The notes beneath the pieces were generated by a model. It ran no database searches and was not told the DNA's origin. It saw only the letters and a program-made list of their open reading frames with translations. A stretch of DNA of 64,000 nt from Gammaproteobacteria bacterium (lineage in GTDB: Bacteria > Pseudomonadota > Gammaproteobacteria > UBA4575): contig JAPONM010000036.1 in the NCBI GenBank assembly GCA_026713925.1, forward strand, positions 124,001-188,000. The letters run 5' to 3'. Both the position numbers and the translations under genes were made by a program. Shown piece by piece: positions 6,739-26,502 of the stretch. Within the stretch, counting starts at the first letter, position 1. Every line of letters begins with the position of its first letter.

Positions 6739-7272
6739 TCAAACGAGAGCGCCATTTACAGCAAGATTGCAAAGCTTCTTTTTGATCAAGTGAGAAAGGT
6801 CATCAGTATCCCCTAGCTCTAGAATTTCGCGTGTTGTAAGAACTACGAGTCGACGCCTTTCCGCAAGGGCTTTGGAAATTATGCTATGTGCTGCAGAAAG
6901 ATTATCTTGGTTGCCAGTAATTCCTTTCGGGGAAATCAAAATTCCGAAATCCAGCCCCCTATGACGTAGTTTGGTATCAAACCAGTTGACTTCTTCACTA
7001 CCAATCCGGACGGACCAATTCTTACACTCCACAAGAATAATGTTGGGGAGAAAGCTCAATCCGGCATCATCGCAGTCATTCCACAACGCAACATCTATCT
7101 CTTCAGTATCAAAAACGTTTAGTGCATTGCGATGTGTAATAGTGATGCCTGGTACCAGTGCAAAAAGCGAGCAAATAAACTCCTCTAATGCCCGGCCTTG
7201 TTCAGTGGTGTTTAGAGCATTTTCTCCTGTACGGATAAACTCCTCCAATACCTGTCTATTAATCACAGGCAT
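6739..7272 (-). CDS. PD-(D/E)XK restriction-endonuclease-like protein
   Basis: A 177-residue protein has a clear PD-(D/E)XK nuclease pattern: Glu30/Glu31 in ALEEFI, Asp60 in EEIDVALW, and the strand IILVECKNW with Glu82 and Lys84. This resembles Mrr-type and nuclease-related-domain cores. The chosen start is the ATG at 7272, which shares one base with the stop of the upstream gene (TGATG), so the two are translationally coupled; a TTG at 7287 also exists. Together they form a two-gene unit in which both members carry a nuclease motif. No methylase lies nearby, which argues against classical restriction-modification. Substrate unknown. Confidence 0.75.
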   Translation of the reverse strand: MPVINRQVLEEFIRTGENALNTTEQGRALEEFICSLFALVPGITITHRNALNVFDTEEIDVALWNDCDDAGLSFLPNIILVECKNWSVRIGSEEVNWFDTKLRHRGLDFGILISPKGITGNQDNLSAAHSIISKALAERRRLVVLTTREILELGDTDDLSHLIKKKLCNLAVNGALV

Positions 7273-8189
7273 CAGGAAATTCCACAATGCACTCGCTGAT
7301 TGCGAAGATTCCTAACGATATCAACAAATGACTGATTACGCATCTTGTTCAAGAGGTCGTTTGCTGGAATAGTGAGAACAGTGGGAGCGATTGAAGCCCA
7401 TGAATTTTTAGTCATTGAAGGACCATCACCATAAACCAAGAGACTCCATGTTGATCCAGACTCTGCAGTCATTTGAGCACATTGTCTAAGTACACCTCTA
7501 GCATGCTCTTCACATCGAAGCTTTAATTTCATTTCAACGAGAAGGGGGTGCCCAAACATACTTTGGAAAATGTCCGACCAGACTACGAGGTCAACCTTGC
7601 GATTATCCAAGGGTGCTTCTACGGCAAATTCAACACCTGATTCTCGTATTGCCTGAGTTATAATTTTTTCAAACCTTACTCCATCATTAGCGATAGTAGC
7701 TGTTTGTACATTGTGTAGAAATTTGTCGATGTGTGCTCCCATACCATGGGCATTGTGTGCTTCCAGCTTTTCTAACTTTTTTGGAGAAGAAGGTGCTGAT
7801 AAAACTTGGTCGAATGCAAAATCAATTGCTTTGCGATTCAAGAGACTCACGCGCAAGACTAGAAATTGTTGAAGATTGAAAGGTATAGATCCGCTTTTCG
7901 GAGGGGCAAATACGATAATTTGGCGACCAAGAGCGACTGCTTGGCCAAGCTCAAATATAACCGACTCTGATCGACGCTCCCGGGTCAGTACACCTACAAC
8001 AAGATCAGCATTAGTAATTAGATCTAGGACATTTGTGTACAGGTCACGACCATCATCTATGTCGTTAGGAAGAAGTAACTGTACTTTTCGTTCTAACAGA
8101 GAAGAACGAATATTTTCAATATTTGTACCGATGGGTGCTGAAATATAGCAATTCCGTCTTGCGCGACCTAACTTTTTTCTTCTGACCAT
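7272..8189 (-). CDS. Fusion of a TIR/2-deoxyribosyltransferase-like domain and a PD-(D/E)XK domain
   Basis: The first ~100 of 305 residues have the fold signature shared by TIR-like and nucleoside 2-deoxyribosyltransferase proteins: CYISAPI near residue 14, ADLVVGVLT near 61, then SVIFELGQAVALG with Glu80 in the position of the catalytic acid. Residues ~170-225 form a PD-(D/E)XK core: Glu174, Asp200 in KVDLVVW, and Glu219/Lys221 in LLVEMKLKL. A short helical linker joins them. Such N-terminal domains often cleave NAD+ or nucleotides in immune proteins. It overlaps the downstream small nuclease gene by one base. The function of the pair is not known to me; a defence role is inferred from domains and neighbourhood. 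Confidence 0.72.
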   Translation of the reverse strand: MVRRKKLGRARRNCYISAPIGTNIENIRSSLLERKVQLLLPNDIDDGRDLYTNVLDLITNADLVVGVLTRERRSESVIFELGQAVALGRQIIVFAPPKSGSIPFNLQQFLVLRVSLLNRKAIDFAFDQVLSAPSSPKKLEKLEAHNAHGMGAHIDKFLHNVQTATIANDGVRFEKIITQAIRESGVEFAVEAPLDNRKVDLVVWSDIFQSMFGHPLLVEMKLKLRCEEHARGVLRQCAQMTAESGSTWSLLVYGDGPSMTKNSWASIAPTVLTIPANDLLNKMRNQSFVDIVRNLRNQRVHCGIS

Positions 8190-12403: not shown

Positions 12404-13771
12404 TTACGCCCGTTCTTTCCTAGCACGGCGAATTTGGCCTTGCTCTTCGTAGTAACTGTCGATGAATTCACCATCTATGAAGCGTTTTGCGACGAGGACA
12501 GGATCTTCTTGTATGTTAAGTGTGGACAAAACAGCTGTGAACATTTCCTCGATGGCAGCTCGTATGCTCCGAGTAATCTTGAATTTGCTCCTTGAGCGGT
12601 TTAGGAGGCCTTCAGAGAATTGATTAGAGTAACTAAGGACATCTTTTGACCACCAGTAGGTATTGTTACGCATCCCTTGGAGGAGGGTTTCGCAAAGATG
12701 CCTGGACATCCAGTTTGATTCGTCACTCAAGAGCCAGACTAGGCATTCAAACGGATCAAACGAATTTCGTGAGTAATGGCCGTCATGTGCGTGCACAAAT
12801 GATTGCGCAAGTTCAGCAGCAGTATAATTTCCGTAGGTAGGATGACGCCAAGCAATCAACTCACCACATAATGGAGCATTTCCATCCGTAGTTTCGGGAG
12901 AGCCATAACTAAACAACTGATGTGAGTCAGACCACTCAGTCTCCAACAATAAGTCGAAAACGTCGGAAAGACCTGTATCGAACCCAGGAATAGTAAGTTG
13001 CGGCACGTACATGGCAAGTAAATTTGGGTTATCTCTAGCGCATTCAAGTAGGCCGGGCCATTCCTGCAGGAATTCGTGCACTTGCTCGGGATGAGTCAAT
13101 TGGCAAATTTTGCGATTTTCACCTTCAACTGACCAACCCATTTGAAGTTCAGCCCAAGCAATATTCAACCCGCGCTCCCTTCCGCCTTCAGCATCTGGAA
13201 ATGGCAGCGGGAAAATCCATCGGCGGCCAAGGTTCAGGTCCGGATATCGTAGCTGGGCTTCCATGATCTCTATAAGGTCAATCCACCACTCATCCGTGAC
13301 GTTTGGTGGCGAGAGTCCTTTGTCAGTCAATAAATCTCGGGCGACAATGAGCGGATCCTCCTCTGGGTGAATCTTTCTGAGAAGGCTGCGCACTACCTCT
13401 TCGATACCACATGATGAAGAGACTGCAAACAGGTCTGCCAGCAGTGGCGAATACTGCAATACTTCATCACGACTAATATTATGCCAGATAGGTAGAATGA
13501 TCCGACGGTCTTCCATATCCTCACGTGCTACCAAGCCGCTTAACTCCCTTTGTGACATGCGTTTGGCGAAAAAATGTTGACTTAGGATAACTATGCCAAA
13601 TCGCGACCGGACTAAACCTCGATCGATTGTTTCCCGTAAGCTATCCCCGACTTTGAGAACGAATTCATCGTACCAAACGTCTAAGTGATGTTCGCGAAGC
13701 GCTTGCGCAAGGGGGCGAACAAAGTCGTCCTTGTCCTCACTAGCATGGCAGATAAAAACGTTGTGTTGCAT
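12404..13771 (-). CDS. TIR-domain protein, likely NAD+-consuming defence effector
   Basis: The first ~130 of 455 residues are a TIR domain: HNVFICHASEDKDDFVRPLA, DVWYDEF near residue 31, GDSLRETIDRGL near 42, SRFGIVILSQHFF near 56, and Glu77 in MSQRELSGL at the usual catalytic position. TIR enzymes of bacterial immunity cleave NAD+ or make cyclic-ADP-ribose signals. The C-terminal ~320 residues have no domain I recognise and may sense or regulate. The ATG at 13771 begins directly at the TIR domain, eight bases after the DUF4238 stop; an upstream in-frame start would lie within the DUF4238 gene. The two form a likely operon. Confidence 0.82.
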   Translation of the reverse strand: MQHNVFICHASEDKDDFVRPLAQALREHHLDVWYDEFVLKVGDSLRETIDRGLVRSRFGIVILSQHFFAKRMSQRELSGLVAREDMEDRRIILPIWHNISRDEVLQYSPLLADLFAVSSSCGIEEVVRSLLRKIHPEEDPLIVARDLLTDKGLSPPNVTDEWWIDLIEIMEAQLRYPDLNLGRRWIFPLPFPDAEGGRERGLNIAWAELQMGWSVEGENRKICQLTHPEQVHEFLQEWPGLLECARDNPNLLAMYVPQLTIPGFDTGLSDVFDLLLETEWSDSHQLFSYGSPETTDGNAPLCGELIAWRHPTYGNYTAAELAQSFVHAHDGHYSRNSFDPFECLVWLLSDESNWMSRHLCETLLQGMRNNTYWWSKDVLSYSNQFSEGLLNRSRSKFKITRSIRAAIEEMFTAVLSTLNIQEDPVLVAKRFIDGEFIDSYYEEQGQIRRARKERA

Positions 13772-13779
13772 CAAGTCAC

Positions 13780-14649
13780 TCAATGCATAAGCGAACGAAT
13801 CAATTGTTCCGAGCAGCCAGCAATCCATCGACTTTGACTGGCGGTGGCCGTGTTTATCTTCCTGATAAACCAATCTTCATCTTGACCAAGTATTGTGAAA
13901 GTTTCCAGTTCCGGATTAGGTGATGCTAGAACAACCACATCGTGGGCAATAGGGAGGCAACTCTGCTTATTGTTCATCATCTTGAAAATGGTGGTGCCAT
14001 GACTTCCAATTACAAAACTTCTTTTAGGGATGCCAATGACACCAACCCACAAACCGGTTTCCCTGCAAAAATTTTCCTCATCTTGAATAAGGTGGCTATC
14101 ATCCCCAGCTGCAAATTTTGCATCGACATTTCGTTGAAGTTTTTGCATCAGTTCTACAATTTGCTGATCTTGGAAAAGCGTATTTCTGTCAGGCAACGGA
14201 TAGCCCTGTTGTTCGGCCCTCCCTTTTGCTGCTTCATAGAATAAATTTTTAAAACTTTCGCTCAACTTTACTCTCCGTTGAGATTCTGGTGTTCTCCGCG
14301 CTATAGAAAGCATAAATCGTTTGAAGGTATTGGAATCTTTTTCAGATAGTTCTGGGCATTTTTTGCCTCGGGCTTTTTCGATGATCTCATTTACAACGGT
14401 GCCTGCTGCACTTTCTAGCTTTCCAATAGCTTTATCATACTTATAGCCTTTTTTAGTCAAGTCACCTGTGTCAGGATCTAAGGCATGTTCGGTATACAGG
14501 TCATTGATGACAAAATTGCTTCCTGGTTTGGTTTTTCGGACATTTCCTGTTTCCGTATCACCCACCCAGAAATAACCTTCAGAATCACAAAAATTTCGAA
14601 GCAGAAATTGTGGAACGTAATGCTGCCGTTTCGGGTGATTAGAGCTCAT
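13780..14649 (-). CDS. DUF4238 family protein
   Basis: A 289-residue protein begins HPKRQHYVPQFLLRNFCD, followed by a GD-x-ETG segment and a DLYTEH motif, the hallmark of DUF4238. The family has no settled biochemical role but often occurs in mobile and defence contexts. It ends eight bases before the TIR start, so the two are probably translated together. The conserved N-terminal His/Tyr/Gln cluster suggests an enzyme or nucleic-acid-binding fold, but no catalytic assignment is possible from sequence alone. Confidence 0.8.
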   Translation of the reverse strand: MSSNHPKRQHYVPQFLLRNFCDSEGYFWVGDTETGNVRKTKPGSNFVINDLYTEHALDPDTGDLTKKGYKYDKAIGKLESAAGTVVNEIIEKARGKKCPELSEKDSNTFKRFMLSIARRTPESQRRVKLSESFKNLFYEAAKGRAEQQGYPLPDRNTLFQDQQIVELMQKLQRNVDAKFAAGDDSHLIQDEENFCRETGLWVGVIGIPKRSFVIGSHGTTIFKMMNNKQSCLPIAHDVVVLASPNPELETFTILGQDEDWFIRKINTATASQSRWIAGCSEQLIRSLMH

Positions 14650-14911: not shown

Positions 14912-16942
14912 TCATACAAGCCGCATTCTCAGTTTCGAAAAACATTTCGGATCATCCCTTCCGTCATATTCAACTGTCCATTGCAAACACGCACGCAAAC
15001 ATAACCGTGCCAAACTTTCTGCATAGTTTCTTGTATTGCTCCCGTATTGCCCCAACTGGTCACTCTTACCATGAATGGTTTGACTACGTCCTTTGGTGTA
15101 GATTTTTTTGATTCTCTTGAGATGTTTGTCTTCATCCTTAAGGGCTAAGCGAGCCTTTATCAAATCTTGGATACCTTCCACTCTGTTACCATCAGCTAAA
15201 GCTTCCATCGATGAACAGAATTTAACAATCGCTATAGAATCTACCTGCTCCCGACAGCCCTCATGAAACCAAAGAATTGCCCGAAAAAGTGCGTTTAATA
15301 TCTTGGGCTGTGACACAGAATTTTTGCCATATATAAAACACTTGATGACTTCTCCAGCACAATGAAATATTTCATCGAAGTCCGTTCGTAACTTGGCCCA
15401 ATCATCCTTTTTCAGCCAAGTAACTCCACCTGAAATATAAGATCGCGAGCTTTGCCATCCGCACGGCCTACCTGGAATCGCAACCAAGTAATCCTGCAGA
15501 TACGATTGCCGGTCAAAAGGGAGTGTTATCACATCCAGAGCCGATGATGGTCTTTCCCATGCAAGAGAAATCACTGCCGTAGCAAGGCGCGCGGCTGTCA
15601 AGGCTTTTTGAGAACCTGCCTCAGATCCCATCTTTGAAACAGCAACACTGCAAACAAAATCGCTCTTTCCAATGGCATCAAGAATCTTCGTCTCGCACAT
15701 TGCATCCCTGGAACCCTTTCTCTCGCGCAGTCTTTCTCCACGCCATGACCTTTGTATGCGTAAGAGCGAAACCTTCGATAGGCTGCTATTCCCATATGTT
15801 CTTTCAAGCCATGCAAGCCTCGGCTCGAACCGAACAGGACCCATAGACAGAGGTTCAAGATCATGGACGTTACAGAGATAACAACCGAAAACATACTCGC
15901 GCTCCGGTATGTTATCGATCCAGTCACGAAGTTTTCCAGTCACAGACTTCAGAATGACTTCAGCGACTTCCTCCATGCTCAATTCATTGTCCTGATTGAC
16001 AAGAGCCATTCCAAACGCCTGTTTCACCATGCGACCCCACTCTGAGTCAGTGAAGTCAGATTTGTTTGCGTCAAAGCATGTATCCATTACCGACTTGGAA
16101 AGTGAATAAAGCATCCTGTCAATCTCAGGTGTGATGTCAATCACCTTTCCATTGCCTACATCCAGTGAGATCGGAAAGGGATAATGATTCTCTGCAGTGT
16201 CTCGAATCCAGAGTGGACCCTCTGGAGGGTTATCGATTTCCCTAACAATATCCTTGACCTGTCGGATACAATATTTACTGTTATTCACATAGTTATTGCT
16301 TGCAATTTCTTTTACGCTATTTTTGAATTCCAAGATTCTATCAGGATGTCCAGGCCCTCTTCTTGTACCTGCTTCAGGCCGTTTCATAATATATGAATAG
16401 TGATGTATTTTTTCTATCTTCGGTGCTTTAAGTCCGATTTTTATCATGTACTTCAGAATTTTCTCTGCCTGACCCCCAAGAGCAACTAATACTTTAGGCC
16501 TGCCAATGTCTATCTGCTCTTGGAGTACAGGCATCCAGCGTTTAGCCTGATTTTCCAAATAGTTTCGATCTCGTTTTTTCTTGTTCCTTTGACTAACGAT
16601 CTCCGGCTCTTTAATGGCATTCGTTATATAGCAATCCCAACCTTCGTTCGATCTTGGCAACCCATGCTTTAGACCTGACTCTGATAATGCCTCACGAAAT
16701 AACCTGTCCCCATTATGTGAGTTCCATTGCAGGTTTTCGGTCTTGTCTACTGATCTCCGATCGACACGTTTTACCCCAGAAAGGCTGGGATTTTCTCCAA
16801 TAAACCAGACTGGACTGTTGATGTTTCCGAGCTGACCTGTAAGCCAGGGATAAACATCAAACCAATTATCCAGATGATCTCTTCGTATTATTTCCTTAAT
16901 ACTATTGACAAGCTCCAATAGATTCTCCGTCTTCTTGTTCAC
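14912..16942 (-). CDS. Fusion of a uracil-DNA-glycosylase-like domain and a HEPN-like domain
   Basis: Residues ~30-220 of 676 look like the UDG superfamily: VWFIGENPSL in place of the family 4/5 GE-x-PG loop, GDRLFREAL, CYITNAIKEP, VLVALGGQAEKIL, and RGPGHPDRI as the HPS-like loop. The middle (230-480) is unassigned. The last ~200 residues resemble HEPN domains of the ApeA type: LFRAILWFHEGCREQVD, KFCSSMEALADG, and R619-x4-H624 in GRSQTIHGK, fitting the R-x4-6-H catalytic motif. HEPN proteins are usually RNases activated on infection, and DNA glycosylases are known to act on modified phage DNA. A plausible reading is damaged or modified DNA sensing joined to RNA cleavage. This architecture is new to me. 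The gene stands alone, with spacers on both sides. Confidence 0.7.
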   Translation of the reverse strand: MNKKTENLLELVNSIKEIIRRDHLDNWFDVYPWLTGQLGNINSPVWFIGENPSLSGVKRVDRRSVDKTENLQWNSHNGDRLFREALSESGLKHGLPRSNEGWDCYITNAIKEPEIVSQRNKKKRDRNYLENQAKRWMPVLQEQIDIGRPKVLVALGGQAEKILKYMIKIGLKAPKIEKIHHYSYIMKRPEAGTRRGPGHPDRILEFKNSVKEIASNNYVNNSKYCIRQVKDIVREIDNPPEGPLWIRDTAENHYPFPISLDVGNGKVIDITPEIDRMLYSLSKSVMDTCFDANKSDFTDSEWGRMVKQAFGMALVNQDNELSMEEVAEVILKSVTGKLRDWIDNIPEREYVFGCYLCNVHDLEPLSMGPVRFEPRLAWLERTYGNSSLSKVSLLRIQRSWRGERLRERKGSRDAMCETKILDAIGKSDFVCSVAVSKMGSEAGSQKALTAARLATAVISLAWERPSSALDVITLPFDRQSYLQDYLVAIPGRPCGWQSSRSYISGGVTWLKKDDWAKLRTDFDEIFHCAGEVIKCFIYGKNSVSQPKILNALFRAILWFHEGCREQVDSIAIVKFCSSMEALADGNRVEGIQDLIKARLALKDEDKHLKRIKKIYTKGRSQTIHGKSDQLGQYGSNTRNYAESLARLCLRACLQWTVEYDGRDDPKCFSKLRMRLV

Positions 16943-17021: not shown

Positions 17022-18368
17022 TTAGTGTTGCAGCTTGTCAATGTCAGCGTTCAATGGATCATAATCTCCGACATCATCGATGTTTTTTTTCTGTGACTGG
17101 ATGGCAGCGACTACTGCTCTGCCATTCTGTAAAACAGCCTGTATAAGTTCTCTCAAATGAACAGTAGTTTCAGCATATGAACCAATATAACCTGATCGGA
17201 CAAGGCCAAGGAACGGACCTTGGCGAAGGTATCGACCATTGAGACTTTTGTAACTAACACGTACACCACCTCTAGGTCCTTTGCATTCAGGGCTAGTTCT
17301 CAGCAACTCAAAATGGTCTATTGGAATTACAATTGCTGAGTTTTTCATTGCGCCGTTGCGTTTTACAAACTTCAAATAAAAAACTTGCGGATTCAAACGA
17401 TACTTATACTGACCCGGAGTAGGTTCAATGCTGAAATCCCGCATGCGTTTAATCTCTGATTCAAGATTTGCGTCCGGTCTGTATATCCAGTCTGGGCTGG
17501 ATTTGTTAGAGTTCTGCCGTTCTAGCATCTTGTACTGTAACATTACGATGTTCTGGTGGGTTTTGTTTAGGTAGATGAGATCGACACCAAAGACTTTTTC
17601 AAGTGGCCTTCGGTTTGCTGTGTAGACTTCGAGCTTTTCAAAGTCCTTTTCAAACACTGCACGCCCAGTGACATCACTACTTGCCAAGTCATAACCCGGA
17701 ACAAAACGTGCATCATGTTCGATAACAGAATCTTCAACGATATTGACTCGATCAAGTGCTGTTTCTCTGCCTTTGACTAGTTCTAGGGAGACAGCTTTGT
17801 CATCAGCGGACAAACCAAATGCACGAAGAGCTGTTTGCACTGCATCTTGCTGTACAGCTTCATTATTCTTATATCGTTTAGGAGAGGAAATTGAGGCAGT
17901 TACAGAGCGCATTGGGCCACAGTTTGTTTTAATTTCTGCTAGTTTCTCGATTAAATGAACACTGAGTTTAGAAGACAACACGCTAGCTACCTCGTCCGAG
18001 GACAGTTTAGTTTGCAAATTCGTTGAGTGTGGTTTTTTTGTAACGAGCGATGGCAGTTCTAATTTGGATGAAGGCTTTATATGATGTGCACGTCTTATCT
18101 TGACTCGGGATTCAAGCGTCGAGACAGAAGCTCGTGAACTCACTACTCCAAAATATATTCCAGACTTAAAAATGTTTCTTTCAAGTAAAATACAAGCAGT
18201 AGGGGTTTGAATTTTACCTATTGATAGATGTGACCTAGCAATAGTAAATTCATTTGCCCCATGTCTTGAATCAAGCAGCTGCAACCATTCATCGCTGTCA
18301 AATTGAAATACTACAAGCCCTTTTTTTCGGACAACTTCTTTGAGTTTGTTTAGCCAGTCAATTTTCAC
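17022..18368 (-). CDS. Hypothetical protein with PD-(D/E)XK-like (QxK) motif
   Basis: A 448-residue protein without a recognised family. Residues ~255-283 read RPLEKVFGVDLIYLN and then NIVMLQYKMLE: Glu257, Asp263 and Q278-Y-K280 fit a PD-(D/E)XK core of the Q-x-K kind. The N-terminal ~120 residues are basic and may bind nucleic acid. It lies between the UDG/HEPN gene (79 bp away) and another Q-x-K protein, on the same strand, inside the defence block. A nuclease role is inference. Confidence 0.5.
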   Translation of the reverse strand: MKIDWLNKLKEVVRKKGLVVFQFDSDEWLQLLDSRHGANEFTIARSHLSIGKIQTPTACILLERNIFKSGIYFGVVSSRASVSTLESRVKIRRAHHIKPSSKLELPSLVTKKPHSTNLQTKLSSDEVASVLSSKLSVHLIEKLAEIKTNCGPMRSVTASISSPKRYKNNEAVQQDAVQTALRAFGLSADDKAVSLELVKGRETALDRVNIVEDSVIEHDARFVPGYDLASSDVTGRAVFEKDFEKLEVYTANRRPLEKVFGVDLIYLNKTHQNIVMLQYKMLERQNSNKSSPDWIYRPDANLESEIKRMRDFSIEPTPGQYKYRLNPQVFYLKFVKRNGAMKNSAIVIPIDHFELLRTSPECKGPRGGVRVSYKSLNGRYLRQGPFLGLVRSGYIGSYAETTVHLRELIQAVLQNGRAVVAAIQSQKKNIDDVGDYDPLNADIDKLQH

Positions 18369-18522: not shown

Positions 18523-19428
18523 CTAGTTTGAAAGCTCTTTGCCCTCAGGCACCTCGACAGTTACAGCAACCGTAGCCGCAATAGGTCCAGATCGTCTGTA
18601 AAACAAGCTTCCCATATCATGTGAATCTGCATCCGTAAAACGCCTCCCTTCCTTGCAGCTTAACAGCAGGTCTGCCATAAAATGTTCGAGACGCCAACCG
18701 TAATCGTAGACAGCTGCATCACTAGCCAGGTCTTTGAGTGATGGGCTGTAGCCCTTTGCTTTTGTGCTAAGGGCTTCTGCAACTTGTCGGTAAGGGACTA
18801 CCCTAGAACCCAAAAAAGGATTTTCAGTAACATCAACATTTTGGGTAATAGGTACCTGTACGTGCAGTGGAATTGTAGGAGGATTGTAAAACAAATAAAA
18901 AACAGGGATATGGTGCAAGTTTGTGTATTTGCCAATTGCCTCAAATTGACGGTCATGGGCATGAAGCGCCTGATAGCGAGAGGTCTTTTCAAATGTGAAT
19001 AACCGTTGTGAAAGCATTGAAGGGGCACGCTTGTCACGCTGCCCAAGACGGGCCATTCCAACAAGGTAATCGTATTCTTCCAAGTGATTAATCTCTCCAA
19101 CTTTTGGATAGAGTCGTTTGGATTGAAGCAACGCTACTTTTTGCCGAATTATCGAACCACCACACTGAAAGAATACAAACACACCGATATCAGCTATCTC
19201 CCATCCGTTAAAGTGCCTTAACCCTCCAAGGTAATGGGTCTCAATTCGAATACCCCAACCAGACGGAAATATGCGAGGAGTAGAATACCCCATCAAATGC
19301 TCAACAAGCGTTGTATCTAGATGAGGCTCATGGATAGCCGGTACATTTTGAATTTTCTCTGCAAGTCTTCGGTTCGATGCTGCAAAAATACCCCGAAACC
19401 AACTAATAACCTCAGCAGGTATGTTCAT
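18523..19428 (-). CDS. Hypothetical protein with PD-(D/E)XK-like (QSK) motif
   Basis: A 301-residue protein. Glu43 in TTLVEHLM, Asp80 in EIADIGVFVFF, and Q102-S-K104 in VALLQSKRLYP line up as a PD-(D/E)XK nuclease core with a Q-x-K third motif. The strand around residue 82 is strongly hydrophobic, as expected. The C-terminal half is unassigned. It is a single gene with spacers of over 150 bp on each side. No family name recognised; the nuclease call is from motif only. Confidence 0.5.
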   Translation of the reverse strand: MNIPAEVISWFRGIFAASNRRLAEKIQNVPAIHEPHLDTTLVEHLMGYSTPRIFPSGWGIRIETHYLGGLRHFNGWEIADIGVFVFFQCGGSIIRQKVALLQSKRLYPKVGEINHLEEYDYLVGMARLGQRDKRAPSMLSQRLFTFEKTSRYQALHAHDRQFEAIGKYTNLHHIPVFYLFYNPPTIPLHVQVPITQNVDVTENPFLGSRVVPYRQVAEALSTKAKGYSPSLKDLASDAAVYDYGWRLEHFMADLLLSCKEGRRFTDADSHDMGSLFYRRSGPIAATVAVTVEVPEGKELSN

Positions 19429-19611: not shown

Positions 19612-20637
19612 TTACCCTGCGTTTAATTTAGTCTGAAAATCTCTCACCACTTTCAAGACTTCTTCAAATGTCGGCACATCACCATAAAACATCTCCTGAC
19701 GCATATTTTCGTAATCAGATTTCCACGCGGGCAAATCAGCCTCTGTCGGTACGAGCCGCAAATGTTCATATTCCATTGTTGAATAATCAACCCACGCATA
19801 ACGAAAGAAAATCTGACGATGTGCGGCTATTTGATGGAATAGATCAAGGCTATGGTAAGCCTGATTACCGATACCGGCTTGAATCAGCCGGCAAAGATCA
19901 TAGTAATGACGTGCCATACCATCTCGCCCTCTCCTATTAATTTCCGGACGAAAAGCCTCCTCATGCAGTAGCATCGCCTTTTCCCAAAAGGTGCGTACCG
20001 GCATCACTGCTTTGACATTTGTGCCTGGTTCCTGCAACAAATCAGGGAAAGCATTGCTGATGTAAGGCCGGGCCTCAATAGATTCAGCAGGGTCCGTATC
20101 CGAGCGGGCACCCATTTCAATTTTCACAACACGACGAAGATAGGCGGCCTGCTCTGGAAAAGACGTTGGGTAGAACAACAGTAAAGTTTGTCTATCAGGA
20201 TCATCTGGATCTAGTTCAAGCGTCCACTCGAGTATCTCCGGCAAATCCGATGAGATGATACTGGAGAGCGCTGGATAAATGCTGTCGCTGATACATTGCT
20301 GACAAGCCGCTTTCAGTGCTTTGAGACGTTTTCCAGTTTGCGACTTGCTAGGTGCCCGTTCCGGTGCTCGGTCTCCACCAAAACCCAACACAGCCCGGTT
20401 GATCACAATATCGATGTCTTCAGAAAAACGGTCAATGAGGTTCCAGCATTTCGATAATGACGTGCCACCTTTGAACGTAAACTGCTCACCCCATTCAGGC
20501 AGTGCAAACAACTTGTGCAGAGTCCAGCAAACCCAGAAGTCTTTTTCAACAGCAACCTCTGACAGGTTCAGCTTTGCACCTGCTTCTGTACAGATCAACT
20601 GACGTCGCTCTGCCGACATCTCAACAAACTCCTTCAT
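19612..20637 (-). CDS. abiEii: AbiEii-family nucleotidyltransferase toxin
   Basis: This 341-residue protein has the AbiEii pattern: [17 protein letters not shown] near residue 28, FKGGTSLSK (Gly57, Gly58, Ser60), and DRFSEDIDI with Asp74 and Asp76 as metal ligands of the nucleotidyltransferase fold. AbiEii toxins modify tRNA or other targets with nucleotides and stop growth. The ATG at 20637 overlaps the antitoxin stop as ATGA; an upstream in-frame start would lie inside the antitoxin gene. It forms a type IV toxin-antitoxin system with the next entry and adds an abortive-infection layer to the island. Confidence 0.88.
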
Positions 20638-21257
20638 GCCGTACTTTCCTGAAGCTGCAGCTTGCGAATGGTATCTGCGATCCAAGCTGGAGCATATCGA
20701 ATGTCCTTCATCAACTGCTTAAGGGCCTTATTATCGAGGCGGCGGTCAAGCTGCTTAATAGTTTGCTGATTAACATTTTTTTTGCCCAGGTAACGCAGTG
20801 CCTGAATTACCAACCCACTACTTTTTCCTGCAGTAGCCATGTTGCGGGGAGTGGTGTGCTTCAGGATAATCTGGCGCGGGCCAATCTGGACTATCCGTGT
20901 ACGGCCATCCGTTAAAAAGACAACTTTAGTAGGCACTTGTGTAGAAAGTCCAAGTAGGTTAGCCGCATAGGCTCCGGAGGGTTGTAACCGAGTGGCATCG
21001 CGACCTGCCAAGGCATTTGCAATGTCATCAGTAGATGGTTGCAACATGCCAAACTGAGAGTCTGTTTTCGGGTAGTCATAAAGCCCACGGGCCAGTTGCC
21101 GAATGAGACCACTGTCCCGATGCCGCATCAGTGCAAGATCAACCGCACGGCGGGTCCCAAGATCTGTGAAGCTGTCAGGCGTAAAAACCCATCCTCGGCC
21201 ACGGGAACGAATCCGCCGGAGAATCCTGCTGCCAGTACTATTTGCGTGCTTACCCAT
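20634..21257 (-). CDS. abiEi: AbiEi-like antitoxin (DUF6088-type)
   Basis: The 207-residue protein has an N-terminal winged helix ([19 protein letters not shown]) followed by the conserved GLYDYPK segment and [14 protein letters not shown], typical of AbiEi-type transcriptional antitoxins. Members bind inverted repeats upstream of their own gene. The 70 bp upstream are very AT-rich (21258-21327) and probably hold the promoter. Coupled by ATGA to the toxin. Confidence 0.85.
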
Positions 21258-21327: not shown

Positions 21328-22194
21328 TCATCGACCAAGATAAGCTGTAGTCACCTGTTCCCGTTCATGGCCGAGTTCCTGGCTGATGATCAGCCGGGCC
21401 TGGTGGTCCAGTTCTTTCTGTTCCGGGTTCAGCGCCGTGCGGTCTGGCCCTTCGGTGGCAGGACACTTCCAGCCCGTCAGTTCCTCATATCTTTCCTGCG
21501 CATACGCATGGCGAAGCCCGTGCATGTTTGAGAGTCCGGCCCTTGTGGTGTTGCCCTCGTAGACTCTTAACTGCTGCACGTAGCTTCGATGCGGCGGGAT
21601 CAATGAGCCGAAGCCGGCAAGTCTTCTTGCCCGGTTCAGCACCTCCCGCTGGGCTTCTATACGGATGGGAATGGCCCTGGGCTTGCCGCCCTTGGTCCAA
21701 CTCGCCTTGAGCTGGATGTGATCCTTCCGGTCGGCATGGCTCGGTGTAAACTTCATGGCCTCCTCCCGTCGCAGGCCAAAGGCCCGCTGCAGTTCCAGAC
21801 TCATGCGCACATGCTCGTCCTTGACCTTGTCAAGCTGGTGTTGTGTAAGGTCTTTGGCCTTTGATTGGTTCGTCACAAAACGCCGGTCCGGAATGCCGTA
21901 ATATTCATTGGAGTTGGCCATGACGTTCCGCTTGTTGACCTTGACGGCCCACCAGCGGATTGCTGCCATCCGGTTTTTGATGGTTCCTGTTGAGAGACCC
22001 CGGTCCTGCCAGTGCTGGACCAGGGCCTCGATGTGTTTCGGTTTGAGCGATTTGGCCTGCATCTTCCGGTAGCCCATCGCATGCAACTCGTTGGCCGCCC
22101 GGGTCAGGATCCGCTCCCGATTTCTCTGCGTGGCATAGCTGCCTTCCCGGCATTGCCTGCAGAGCTGTTTCAAGTTGTGGTTCAAGTCTCGCAT
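21328..22194 (-). CDS. Integrase-domain protein (tyrosine-recombinase type found on integrative elements)
   Basis: The 288-residue product begins MRDLNHNLKQLCRQ, the usual start of this integrase-domain family, and the ATG at 22194 has GGAG seven bases upstream. An in-frame ATG at 22275 also exists. Recombinase residues are visible: Arg in GLRREEAMKF, the HGLRHAY motif, and GHEREQVTTAYLGR with the terminal Tyr. Such genes often lie within integrative elements without being the main integrase. Here the element already has a tRNA-adjacent integrase at 29805. This gene marks either a nested element or a boundary in the island. Confidence 0.8.
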   Translation of the reverse strand: MRDLNHNLKQLCRQCREGSYATQRNRERILTRAANELHAMGYRKMQAKSLKPKHIEALVQHWQDRGLSTGTIKNRMAAIRWWAVKVNKRNVMANSNEYYGIPDRRFVTNQSKAKDLTQHQLDKVKDEHVRMSLELQRAFGLRREEAMKFTPSHADRKDHIQLKASWTKGGKPRAIPIRIEAQREVLNRARRLAGFGSLIPPHRSYVQQLRVYEGNTTRAGLSNMHGLRHAYAQERYEELTGWKCPATEGPDRTALNPEQKELDHQARLIISQELGHEREQVTTAYLGR

Positions 22195-22651
22195 CGTGTT
22201 CTCCGATATCTGGTGAGTGTTTCTGAGCACCTCAGCACCTGAATGCTGCGGTTTCGCTTGCGCGAATACGCTCATGGGGCACGACCCCCGTAATGACTTG
22301 GTCAGGCCTGTTCAAGGCCACGCAGGAGGACTTCTGTGGAAGACGGACCTGCGACAGTCAACATGCCCGATATACGGGCGATAGGATTTACACCTCCTTT
22401 GAAACAAGCGGAGTTACCGCATGGATTGAAATAAACGGCCCTGCGCACAGCACCCGTCGTCCTGACCCGGAAGGTCAGAGCGGTGTGCCATTCACGTGGC
22501 TTTGATGGATGTCACGCACAGGCGAGCCCGCACGTGCCGATAGGCAGAATGCCTTGAGTTGAAGATGGAGACCGGCCCAAGGGACCTGAATCCGGACTAT
22601 CTGTATAGACAGACAGTGTATTTGAAGATGGATCGCCGGCGTTGCCGCTGT
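22195..22651. other. Noncoding stretch, possible plus-strand small RNA
   Basis: More than 450 bases without a credible ORF lie between the integrase-domain gene and a terminator-like hairpin on the plus strand (22652-22683). The DNA is GC-rich with several short inverted repeats. A transcript ending at the terminator is possible, but no promoter is obvious. Confidence 0.3.
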
Positions 22652-23010: not shown

Positions 23011-26000
23011 CTACCAGTGCGTCCCCAGGTGCAGGCGCAGGAGGTGTTCCGGGGCGCGGTCATCGTCCAGGGGTTCCTGTCGCGCGCCGTGCAGTTCGAG
23101 TTCGAAGTGCAGGGCCTCCTGGCGTGCGAGGCCCAGGCGCCAGCCGAGGCGGATCTCACGCGCGGTGTCCGACAGGGCAAGCCCGGCATGGGGGGTGCCG
23201 ACCAGCTGTCCGCGTGCATGCAGCACGCCGTAGCCGAGGGTCGCCTCGAGGTGCCTGTTCGGTGCTGTATCCTTGCGGTCATCACTGGCTGCCAGCCGGC
23301 TTGCGGCATCCGGGTGCAGCAGGGCGTTCATGCCACTCGTGGCGGAGGCCCCCATTGCCTGGTGCAGCGTCATCGACCAGCCGGCCGCCGAGGCCGGGTG
23401 CGGGTCCCAGGCCAGCGAGGCGGCCAGGCCACGTTCACGAAACTCCGAGTCATCATGGGTCAGCAGGCCGCGGGCCTGCACCGAGGCGCTGATCCCGCGC
23501 TGCGGGTCGGTCCAGGCGAGGCTGGTGGCGAGGTCCGCGCCGAAGCCAGTCTCGGCATCGCCGCCGTCATGGCGCAGCCCGATCTCTACCGAGGGATTCA
23601 GTTGCGCCCCGGAGGCCAGTTGCATCTGCCAGGTGCCCTCGAGCCCCAGGCGTACCCGGGTGAGTTCGGCGGACGTGCCGGCAAGTTCCTCCCCGATCGA
23701 ATCCGATTCCGTGCGCACGTACAGGCCATCGGAGACGAGCGCCAGTTCTGGGCGGGCCCCGGCCTCCCCGGCATGCAGCACGCCACGTACGCCCGCGCTT
23801 GCCATCTTCAGCTCGGTGTCGGCCTTGAGCGTCGTGGCGCCATCCGGCTTGAGGCGGATCTCGCCCTCGCCGTAGCCGGCCAGGCCCCATACCGAGACAC
23901 TGTCGTTGAGCGTACGGTGCACCCAGGGATACAGGCCCGTCATGTCCGAATCGATGTCGCCCGCTTGCGTTTGCGAGCGGTACTCGCCGTCGCCGTCCGA
24001 GTGCGACAGGATCAGGCCGGCCCGCAGGGACCCGCGCACGAGGTCAGCGCCCAGCATGCCGGTGAGGGCCTCGCCGTCGAGTCTCAGATCCCCTTCCTCG
24101 CCATCGAAGCTCGCGATCGCCCCACGGCCCCAGAACGAGGCTAGGCCGCCTGTGCCGGTATCGGCGGTGTATGAGAACGAAGCGCCATTCAAGGCATCAG
24201 CCCAGGCGAGGCTTCGTCCCATCCCGGTCTCGAAGGTCCATTCGGGTGCGGCGTCGAGCGCCTCACGGCCGGCGCGTAGCGTCTTGAGGTCCAGGCCCGC
24301 CATGCTGGCGGTAAAACCGGGCTGCGAAGCCGTGAAGCGGTCTTCGGCCGCCTTTAGCACCTGGTCCGACACGGTGCGCCCGAAGCGCACCAGCCATCCT
24401 TCCACCATGGACTCGCTCATCCTCACCCCCGGGGTGTGCCCCTCGCCGGAACCCGACCAGGGGCCGTAGGCGTTGGCGTTCATCGCCCGCACCTGGACCT
24501 GGTAGAGCGTCTCAGGCGCAAGGCCCGTCAGCCTCGCGCGAAGCTCGCCCGGGTTCACGGTACTTGGCCTCCACGCCCCACCGGGGCCTGCCCGGTAGCG
24601 CACGGCATAGCCGGTGATCGCGGGACGCCCCGCATTGGCGGGCGCCATCCAGGAAGCCATAAGCACGGTGTCACTGTCTGCATCCGAGCGCACCTGCGGG
24701 ACATCCGGGGCCAGTGGGGCCTCCGGCGCATCGAGGACCGTGATCATCACCCCGGTCGTCACGCTGGCATCCCCGGCGCTGGCGCGCACCACGACCGAAT
24801 AGCCCGAACGCTGCTCGTAATCGTATACCACCCCGGCCCGGGTGCGCAGCTGGCCGGTGGACGCCACGATCGTGAACGCCTCCCGGTCTTCTCCCTCGAG
24901 GGTGTACTGCACCGGCTCATCAATGCCTGTGGCCGTGGCCGCCACCGGGGCGCCGATGTCCATGGCCGTCACTGTGGGCGCATCTCCAATGCTCTCCCGG
25001 AAACTGCGCTCTGCAGTCTCTGGGGCCGACAGGCTCGGGGTGGTGGCGTCGTCATCGCCATCGCCATCGCCATCGCCATCGCCATCGCCATCACCCGGAT
25101 CACCAGGGTCGTCGTCATCGCTAGGGCCGCCCGGACCACCTGGACCGCCACCAGGATTATTCGGGTCACCGTCATCGCCACCGGGATCGTCGCCCGGATC
25201 GTCGCCGCCGGGAGGCGTGTCGCCCTCATAGATCGTCACCACCGCCGTGTTGGGGCTGCCAATGACGAAGTTCTCCGGCGGGTGCACCAGGTACACCGAG
25301 AAGGTCTCGTCGTCGCCGTCGGAGTCCCGGGCCGTCCATATCTCGGCCGTGGCGCTTGACCTCCCCGCAGGGACCGTGATGCTGTCAAGCGTGCCGTGAT
25401 CACCCGCCTCCGACGTGCCCCGATCCACCCGCATCCGGACCCCCACGTCGTGCTGGAGCACCGTCTGGCGCGAGCCCTGGTACAGCAAGGCCCTGACCGT
25501 CACCGGAGAACCCTCCGGCACCGGGTTCGGCGAGACCCACAGCCGAACGTTCAGATCGTTGTTACTGTCCAGGATCGTGATCTGCACCGAGGTCTTGCTG
25601 CCCGACGTCACGCCCGAGGGCAGGTTGTCCGTGTCGATCGACACCGTGAAGGTCTCGTCGTCCGCGTCGTCGTCGGGGTTCGCTGTAATCCTCCAGGAGC
25701 TTTGCGTCGACCTCGAATTGCCCCTCAAGAAGACGAAGTAGTCGTCCGACGGGGTCGAGTAGTCGCCCGGCTCCGCCGTATCGTTCGTCACCGTCACGGG
25801 GATTCTCGCGCTGCCTGTGCCTGGCATCGGCTTCGAGAGCGTCGCTATAACCGGGATTGTGTTTCCCTCGCTCACGTAGTCCGGGGAGACCGAGAGAGAG
25901 ACCGTGGCGGGCGGGGGCGGGGGCTCCACAAGGCTCACCGAGACCATGTCGCCGTCGGTCCAAGTGAGGCCGGCGTTTAACCATACAGCAGTTCTCCCAG

Positions 26001-26502
26001 ACAGATCCGCATCAGCCAGGGAAAACCGTTTAGTGCCTACTCGTAGAGTTAACACATTCAGCCCGCTAATGGATGACACACTCTCCCTGACACCAAAAAC
26101 CAAAGTGCCACTTGAGTTTAGATAGAGAAACTCGACCTTATAATTTGTACCTGAATAGCTGAACTCGTAATCTGTGAGCGCGGTGGTGCCGGACCCTGTT
26201 GGAGGAGAACATCTTCCAGTTATGCCCGCTGCAGTCGTGCTGCATCCTATATCAGTTGCAATCTGATTTGCGGTCAGCGTGGCGGACCAGACGTGGGTCC
26301 CACCATGATCAGCCTGCGCAGGGGCGGCGGCGAAAAGGGAGAACGCGCCGAGCAGCAGGGCGAGGGCCGGAAGGAGACGGGAAGGGCGGGTGCGGCTGCG
26401 CCCGGGACGTGGATCAGGTAAGGATGGGGAACCTGCCGGGGCCGGGGAATGGGTGGAGGAGGCCGGTCGTTGCGCGCCGACCGAACGCCGGGCGCACCTC
26501 AT
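23011..26502 (-). CDS. Calx-beta/cadherin/FnIII surface protein with C-terminal autotransporter-like barrel
   Basis: A 1163-residue exported protein. A long basic leader precedes the hydrophobic signal (about residues 43-60), with cleavage near AQA-DH at 64. Two Calx-beta-like repeats follow (about 200-425), each with SVSP-x-x-VSEG or PNPVPEG and DDETF-x-V. Next is a Gly/Asp/Pro linker (~428-495) with a Gly-Asp run, a cadherin-like domain (about 500-595, DYEQRSGYSVVV), and a fibronectin type III domain (about 600-695, LAPETLYQVQVRAMN). The last ~350 residues form an outer-membrane barrel ending HLLRLHLGTHW. It probably reaches the outer membrane and displays adhesive repeats. GC content is clearly higher than in the flanking defence genes, suggesting a different source. 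The start is uncertain because heptanucleotide repeats replace any Shine-Dalgarno. Confidence 0.82.
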   Translation of the reverse strand: MRCARRSVGAQRPASSTHSPAPAGSPSLPDPRPGRSRTRPSRLLPALALLLGAFSLFAAAPAQADHGGTHVWSATLTANQIATDIGCSTTAAGITGRCSPPTGSGTTALTDYEFSYSGTNYKVEFLYLNSSGTLVFGVRESVSSISGLNVLTLRVGTKRFSLADADLSGRTAVWLNAGLTWTDGDMVSVSLVEPPPPPATVSLSVSPDYVSEGNTIPVIATLSKPMPGTGSARIPVTVTNDTAEPGDYSTPSDDYFVFLRGNSRSTQSSWRITANPDDDADDETFTVSIDTDNLPSGVTSGSKTSVQITILDSNNDLNVRLWVSPNPVPEGSPVTVRALLYQGSRQTVLQHDVGVRMRVDRGTSEAGDHGTLDSITVPAGRSSATAEIWTARDSDGDDETFSVYLVHPPENFVIGSPNTAVVTIYEGDTPPGGDDPGDDPGGDDGDPNNPGGGPGGPGGPSDDDDPGDPGDGDGDGDGDGDGDDDATTPSLSAPETAERSFRESIGDAPTVTAMDIGAPVAATATGIDEPVQYTLEGEDREAFTIVASTGQLRTRAGVVYDYEQRSGYSVVVRASAGDASVTTGVMITVLDAPEAPLAPDVPQVRSDADSDTVLMASWMAPANAGRPAITGYAVRYRAGPGGAWRPSTVNPGELRARLTGLAPETLYQVQVRAMNANAYGPWSGSGEGHTPGVRMSESMVEGWLVRFGRTVSDQVLKAAEDRFTASQPGFTASMAGLDLKTLRAGREALDAAPEWTFETGMGRSLAWADALNGASFSYTADTGTGGLASFWGRGAIASFDGEEGDLRLDGEALTGMLGADLVRGSLRAGLILSHSDGDGEYRSQTQAGDIDSDMTGLYPWVHRTLNDSVSVWGLAGYGEGEIRLKPDGATTLKADTELKMASAGVRGVLHAGEAGARPELALVSDGLYVRTESDSIGEELAGTSAELTRVRLGLEGTWQMQLASGAQLNPSVEIGLRHDGGDAETGFGADLATSLAWTDPQRGISASVQARGLLTHDDSEFRERGLAASLAWDPHPASAAGWSMTLHQAMGASATSGMNALLHPDAASRLAASDDRKDTAPNRHLEATLGYGVLHARGQLVGTPHAGLALSDTAREIRLGWRLGLARQEALHFELELHGARQEPLDDDRAPEHLLRLHLGTHW
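25053..25092. repeat. Hexanucleotide tandem repeat encoding a Gly-Asp linker
   Basis: Six copies of CATCGC plus a partial CATC lie in the surface-protein gene and encode alternating Asp and Gly. Copy changes keep the reading frame and would lengthen or shorten the linker between the Calx-beta and cadherin-like parts. Confidence 0.85.

Follow-up and report, generated by a model that had tools for sequence, protein, structure and literature searches.

The gene at positions 14912-16942 (minus strand) of the window, as we call the whole 64,000-nucleotide stretch of DNA that was analysed, encodes a single protein in which a UDG-superfamily DNA-glycosylase-like module is followed by a complete copy of a protein that is likely HEPN. 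Our leading, still tentative reading is that of a fused defence protein, with an RNA-cutting HEPN effector tied to a base-recognising UDG module. One protein joining the two parts had been proposed in the initial annotation, and this was borne out by the single 676-aa frame, the UDG match, and the invariance of R619 and H624. The same annotation knew of no described glycosylase-HEPN fusion; we likewise found none in the literature searched, and a glycosylase fusion of HEPN is not mentioned by Anantharaman et al. 2013 (PMC3710099).

Reading Frame and Modules

The frame runs uninterrupted from a GTG start, with zero internal stops, and was recovered in the genome of origin (G000:C36). All features of this gene lie on the minus strand. 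The UDG module covers residues 1-214 (16301..16942) and the stand-alone HEPN-type protein residues 219-676 (14915..16288); the linker between them amounts to a few residues, the UDG C-terminal helix spanning 200-215 and the HEPN protein starting at 219. An in-frame GTG at V219 (16286..16288) may be a relic of the stand-alone HEPN gene or could serve as its internal start. Within the HEPN-type protein, the HEPN-like four-helix domain was predicted at approximately residues 544-662 (14957..15313), and the predicted RNase motif, R619-x4-H624, is located at 15071..15088.

The HEPN-Type Protein

A stand-alone protein of ~455 aa is contained in full in residues ~219-676; its family was found at about 36 loci and represents a previously undescribed HEPN-type family carried by bacteria, plasmids, and phages. 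The relatives came from 28 loci of the genome_contigs collection and one viral contig, beside plasmid, phage, and other genome loci, including two Sinorhizobium plasmids and an Acinetobacter phage gene annotated as "HEPN domain-containing protein." Conservation was evaluated on 34 aligned proteins, with identity to the window protein down to 16%. The residues G368, W558, L582, Y615, G618, R619, H624, and G625 were invariant, R619 and H624 being the only charged ones among them (34/34). The residue directly after R619 was S or N in all 34, and the position of E565 was occupied by E or D in 33 of them. A loss of R619 and H624 among homologues would have spoken against the initial annotation; both residues persist down to 16-18% identity.

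The AlphaFold2 model of residues 215-676 had a pLDDT of 88.7 (model numbering plus 214 gives protein numbering). It contained a helical domain at 332-444, with helices at 332-350, 354-368, (374-384), 390-410, and 420-444 in model numbering. R405 and H410 of the model, that is, R619 and H624, closed helix 390-410, ahead of the final helix; the motif and the HEPN-like helices that had been noticed from the sequence were found together in a C-terminal bundle. In the model, the motif ends helix 3 of a HEPN-like bundle, and helices 2 and 3 are separated by an additional helix. PMC3710099 defines HEPN by R-x4-6-H ending helix 3, with a polar residue after R and an acidic residue, a further helix being frequent between helices 2 and 3. 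The window protein and the HEPN superfamily (including Csm6/Csx1, ApeA, and Abi HEPN) share R-x4-H closing helix 3, the polar residue after R, the nearby acidic residue, and a four-helix bundle, which has 115 aa here and 100-120 aa in the superfamily. The best structural matches over this region were DrrA (Z 7.3, rmsd 4.6, 114 aligned residues) and Csm6 (Z 6.0, rmsd 4.6, 110 aligned residues); both lie under the threshold stated for helical bundles, of which unrelated ones can reach Z 6-7. Both DrrA and Csm6 are placed in HEPN families by PMC3710099.

By contrast with the described superfamily, the window protein had no match to a described Pfam or PADLOC family, and its middle domain had no recognised relative. 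No described HEPN family was detected for the C-terminal part by Pfam, PADLOC, PHROG HEPN families, PDB sequence, or profile search, and none of 32 family members had a Pfam HEPN match. Foldseek with the HEPN model gave no significant match against PDB and viral structures (E>0.9 for the solved HEPN domains). The comparison with HEPN/ApeA profiles, which had been suggested as a check, gave nothing significant: hhalign against five ApeA-type HEPN domains (PF18739) returned E 0.2, spanning the motif only. The matching family PHROG 38039 has no assigned function. Taking the conserved motif and the modelled bundle together, the C-terminal part is likely HEPN, and we infer that it has RNase activity.

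Considering that this part is a complete stand-alone protein from start to end, that its family occurs without UDG in all other genomes, and that Brig1 and Brig3 give defence with a glycosylase domain alone (PMC11078745, PMC13160076), the chain could carry two independent effectors, the glycosylase hitting phage DNA and the HEPN protein working as it does alone, so that the fusion merely co-delivers them. We regard this as somewhat unlikely, since fusion, as opposed to gene neighbourhood, usually implies coupling, and here the two modules are a few residues apart.

Relatives and Origin of the Fusion

The full protein, its parts, or its families were used as queries against genome_contigs, viral_contigs, plasmids, phages, E. 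coli genomes, and in ~1,700 genome searches, and no other UDG-HEPN fusion was detected. The tblastn search of residues 1-214 against every relative locus gave no match. The open frames of the relatives have their own starts, near query residue 215-220 or later, and no UDG upstream. The same architecture, which the initial annotation had proposed to look for in other genomes, was not found. All relatives are stand-alone HEPN proteins, so the best argument that the two parts work as a system, conservation of the fusion, is lacking.

The closest relative, L016 (also recovered as G784), is from the same genus and 72% identical; it is a stand-alone gene of 454 aa without UDG, adjoining type I restriction-modification genes. 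In the local alignment, which starts at V219, the ATG of L016 aligns with the in-frame GTG of the window gene. In the tree, the window protein was nested in a well-supported clade of stand-alone members (100/99 for the 2-row set and 99/100 for the 6-row set). Since every relative examined lacks the UDG, including L016 with its start at residue 219, the fusion looks like one recent joining in a single lineage, in which a UDG gene was added to the 5′ end of a mobile, defence-associated HEPN gene; this is the parsimonious reading.

Alternatively, the fusion could be accidental or inert, produced by the recent loss of a stop between adjacent genes or by a sequencing or assembly error at the junction, so that the true products would be two proteins or a decaying gene. 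The single occurrence, the UDG-free copy in the same genus, the GTG that persists at the ancestral HEPN start, and the position among stand-alone members in the tree are all compatible with it. Against this, the open frame runs through the C-terminal helix of the UDG and enters the HEPN protein within ~4 codons, which leaves little room for an indel, and all the UDG motif positions and all the HEPN motif residues are intact. Moreover, comparison with L016 shows purifying selection on the HEPN part (dN 0.16 and dS 0.61 by NG86, dN/dS about 0.25-0.35). An accidental or inert fusion is in our opinion unlikely.

The UDG Module

The Pfam UDG family (PF03167) matched residues 38-190 with E 6.4e-11 and 43 bits (cut-off 24.3); the NCBIfam matches to family 4 and UdgX were weak and under their cut-offs. 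Residues 1-230 were modelled with a mean pLDDT of 70 from a 16-row alignment that itself includes UDGs. With this model, all 47 Foldseek matches at E<=0.001 were UDG-superfamily structures, and the best structural Z was 12.9 (UdgX and Thermus UDG), with 10.7 for MUG and TDG. The predicted fold has the alternating strands and helices of UDG, with motif A ending the first core strand. A comparison of residues 1-230 with UDG families had been proposed from the start, and both predicted fold and Pfam match show the N-terminus folding as a UDG, against the refuting outcome of a fold unlike UDG.

The motifs were placed by alignment with 15 UDGs. IGENPS (48-53), CYITNAIK (104-111), and VALGGQA (153-159) fall at the expected UDG positions, as had been supposed from the sequence; GHPDRI (198-203), included in the same supposition, is in or before the C-terminal helix, downstream of the true histidine motif, H181-Y182-S183-Y184-I185, which follows model beta-strand 175-179. 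Motif A proper is G49-E50-N51-P52-S53 (16784..16798). The second-strand motif, C104-YITN108-AIKE112 (16607..16633), holds the base-binding Asn position, aligns with YITNxVK of family 4 and UdgX, and corresponds to model strand 104-110. In the histidine motif, H180-H181-Y-S-Y-I-M-K-R188 (16379..16405), H181 aligned with HPSYILR of other UDGs, in a column at least 90% conserved. Family 4 UDG and UdgX were the best structural matches (Z ~12-13) and have a second motif of the CYITNAIK type. They differ from the window module in having four cysteines for a 4Fe-4S cluster, GExPGxxE in place of GENPS, and HPS in place of HYS. Cys104 is the sole cysteine in residues 1-214, the other family-4 cysteine columns being without Cys, so the module lacks the Fe-S cluster that family 4 and UdgX have. 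Asn is found at the position of N51 also in MUG and TDG. Going by motif A, the active site of the module would be Brig-like or MUG-like.

Since the whole genome of origin carries four other UDG genes, the module is an extra, divergent UDG. Sequence searches of genomes and relative loci gave no closer kin than generic UDG similarity, and no close relative of the module was present elsewhere in the 24 relative-bearing genomes searched. A likeness of locus L054 to residues 16-64 was due to chance, L054 being an amidohydrolase. It is very improbable that the module is no glycosylase but a DNA-binding sensor with little or no catalysis, or that it regulates the RNase by restraining it, because the residues at the catalytic positions are kept (E50/N51, N108, and H181). 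Changes in its motifs would fit such a role (no Fe-S Cys, W73 for the pocket Phe, E112 at the position of UdgX H109, and HYS for HPS). A base-recognising glycosylase module is the preferred reading of the N-terminal third.

Proposed Mechanism and Comparison with Known Systems

In the mechanism that we propose, the HEPN-type RNase of the C-terminal two thirds, which is found alone elsewhere, would probably cut host or phage RNA once triggered, and phage growth would be stopped. The Brig-like, Fe-S-free UDG module of the N-terminal third would recognise, and probably excise, an unusual or modified base in the invading DNA, and the fusion would couple RNA cleavage to the detection of this base, or to that of the abasic site left behind. 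From the features described above we infer the two activities, what they act on, and how the domains signal to each other. The specific step by which the glycosylase reads a modified or unusual phage base, and its binding or the abasic site switches on the fused HEPN RNase, is possible and is put forward with caution. If true, this would be the first link of base-excision sensing to RNA-cleaving abortive infection. Anti-phage effectors are known among both Brig-type glycosylases and HEPN RNases; the two kinds act on different nucleic acids, and a coupling between them is not known. Such a coupling would let the recognition of modified bases serve as an alarm and not only as an attack, would account for a glycosylase defending without reliance on DNA damage alone, and would offer a ready-made base-specific, RNA-cleaving sensor.

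Brig1 and Brig3 are similar to the window module in having a UDG-superfamily fold outside the Fe-S type and in being located in defence islands (PMC11078745, PMC13160076). By comparison of residue names, and not of sequences, the catalytic N50-P51-S52 of Brig3 corresponds to N51-P52-S53 in motif A of the window protein; in Brig3, N50 is positioned at the glycosidic bond, and defence is lost with N50A (PMC13160076). The Brig proteins differ in that they are single-domain and ~260 aa long, whereas in the window the UDG module is joined to an RNase-type protein. Neither an ADP-ribosyl glycohydrolase nor a glucosyl hydrolase was annotated among the scanned genes neighbouring the fusion. DS-11, a CBS-HEPN protein from DefensePredictor (PMC13092281), resembles the fusion as a one-protein defence made of a sensor domain and HEPN; its sensor is a nucleotide-binding CBS domain, while that of the window would be a DNA glycosylase domain. 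In that work, the CBS-HEPN protein was validated and UDG was among the predicted, unvalidated defence domains.

Neighbourhoods of the HEPN Family

The relatives in loci L016, L017, and L018 have type I and type IIG restriction-modification genes as neighbours, and others adjoin a retron and, on a plasmid, an OLD-like/UvrD pair. These links with restriction modification and mobile elements are shared with the HEPN superfamily and, by association only, support a role of the family in defence or superinfection exclusion. No constant operon partner was found; the upstream genes differ among loci and include type IIG restriction-modification, RES, DUF559-like, HTH, and phage cement protein genes.

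Several arrangements were observed at single or few loci. In L017:4901-9308, an MmeI-like type IIG restriction-modification gene stops 1 bp before the stand-alone HEPN gene, and both probably form one operon. In three Alphaproteobacteria (L034:6851-9284, L036:6843-9272, and L038:1919-4353), the HEPN gene comes right after a conserved gene of ~347 aa with a C-terminal DUF559-like nuclease region, as a recurrent two-gene unit. Four loci (L031:9389-12809, L033:9404-12859, L035:9387-13202, and L037:1683-5138) have the same convergent three-gene cassette adjacent to the HEPN gene, and the middle gene of this cassette (~715 aa), tested in L031, matched PADLOC mad8. Phage structural regions hold family genes in L008:4326-5699 (Acinetobacter phage vB_AbaSI_5) and L029:7518-9269 (prophage-like, with a cement protein); superinfection-exclusion genes often sit within such regions. 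A DUF4238 gene next to the HEPN gene was clear only in the window and L031 (motif scan), with a DUF4238-like ORF by L005 (by eye), which are too few cases to speak of linkage.

Genomic Setting of the Fusion

The fusion gene is located in a low-GC island (0.45 versus 0.53), which is a horizontally acquired defence island and in this way speaks for the reading as a defence protein. It contains a tyrosine integrase (21328-22275), which adjoins a clear type IV toxin-antitoxin pair formed by an AbiEii nucleotidyltransferase toxin and a DUF6088/AbiEi-type antitoxin (19612-21257, minus strand). Just downstream of the fusion gene there are a TIR-domain gene (12404-13873, minus strand), whose best PADLOC match was PDC-S66 (E 4.6e-57), and an overlapping DUF4238 gene (13780-14649, minus strand); together they look like a two-gene defence unit. 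Just upstream and on the same strand, the genes at 17022-18368 and 18523-19428 had no match to Pfam, NCBIfam, PADLOC, or PHROG families and are possible new defence genes. The gene at 7272-8189 (minus strand) showed a weak N-terminal domain of the nucleoside deoxyribosyltransferase/TIR-like type (PF05014, E 3e-7). Outside the low-GC island, a GC-rich ORF of 1163 aa (23011-26502, minus strand) had, by eye, Asp-Gly repeats with cadherin/fibronectin-like and autotransporter-like regions.
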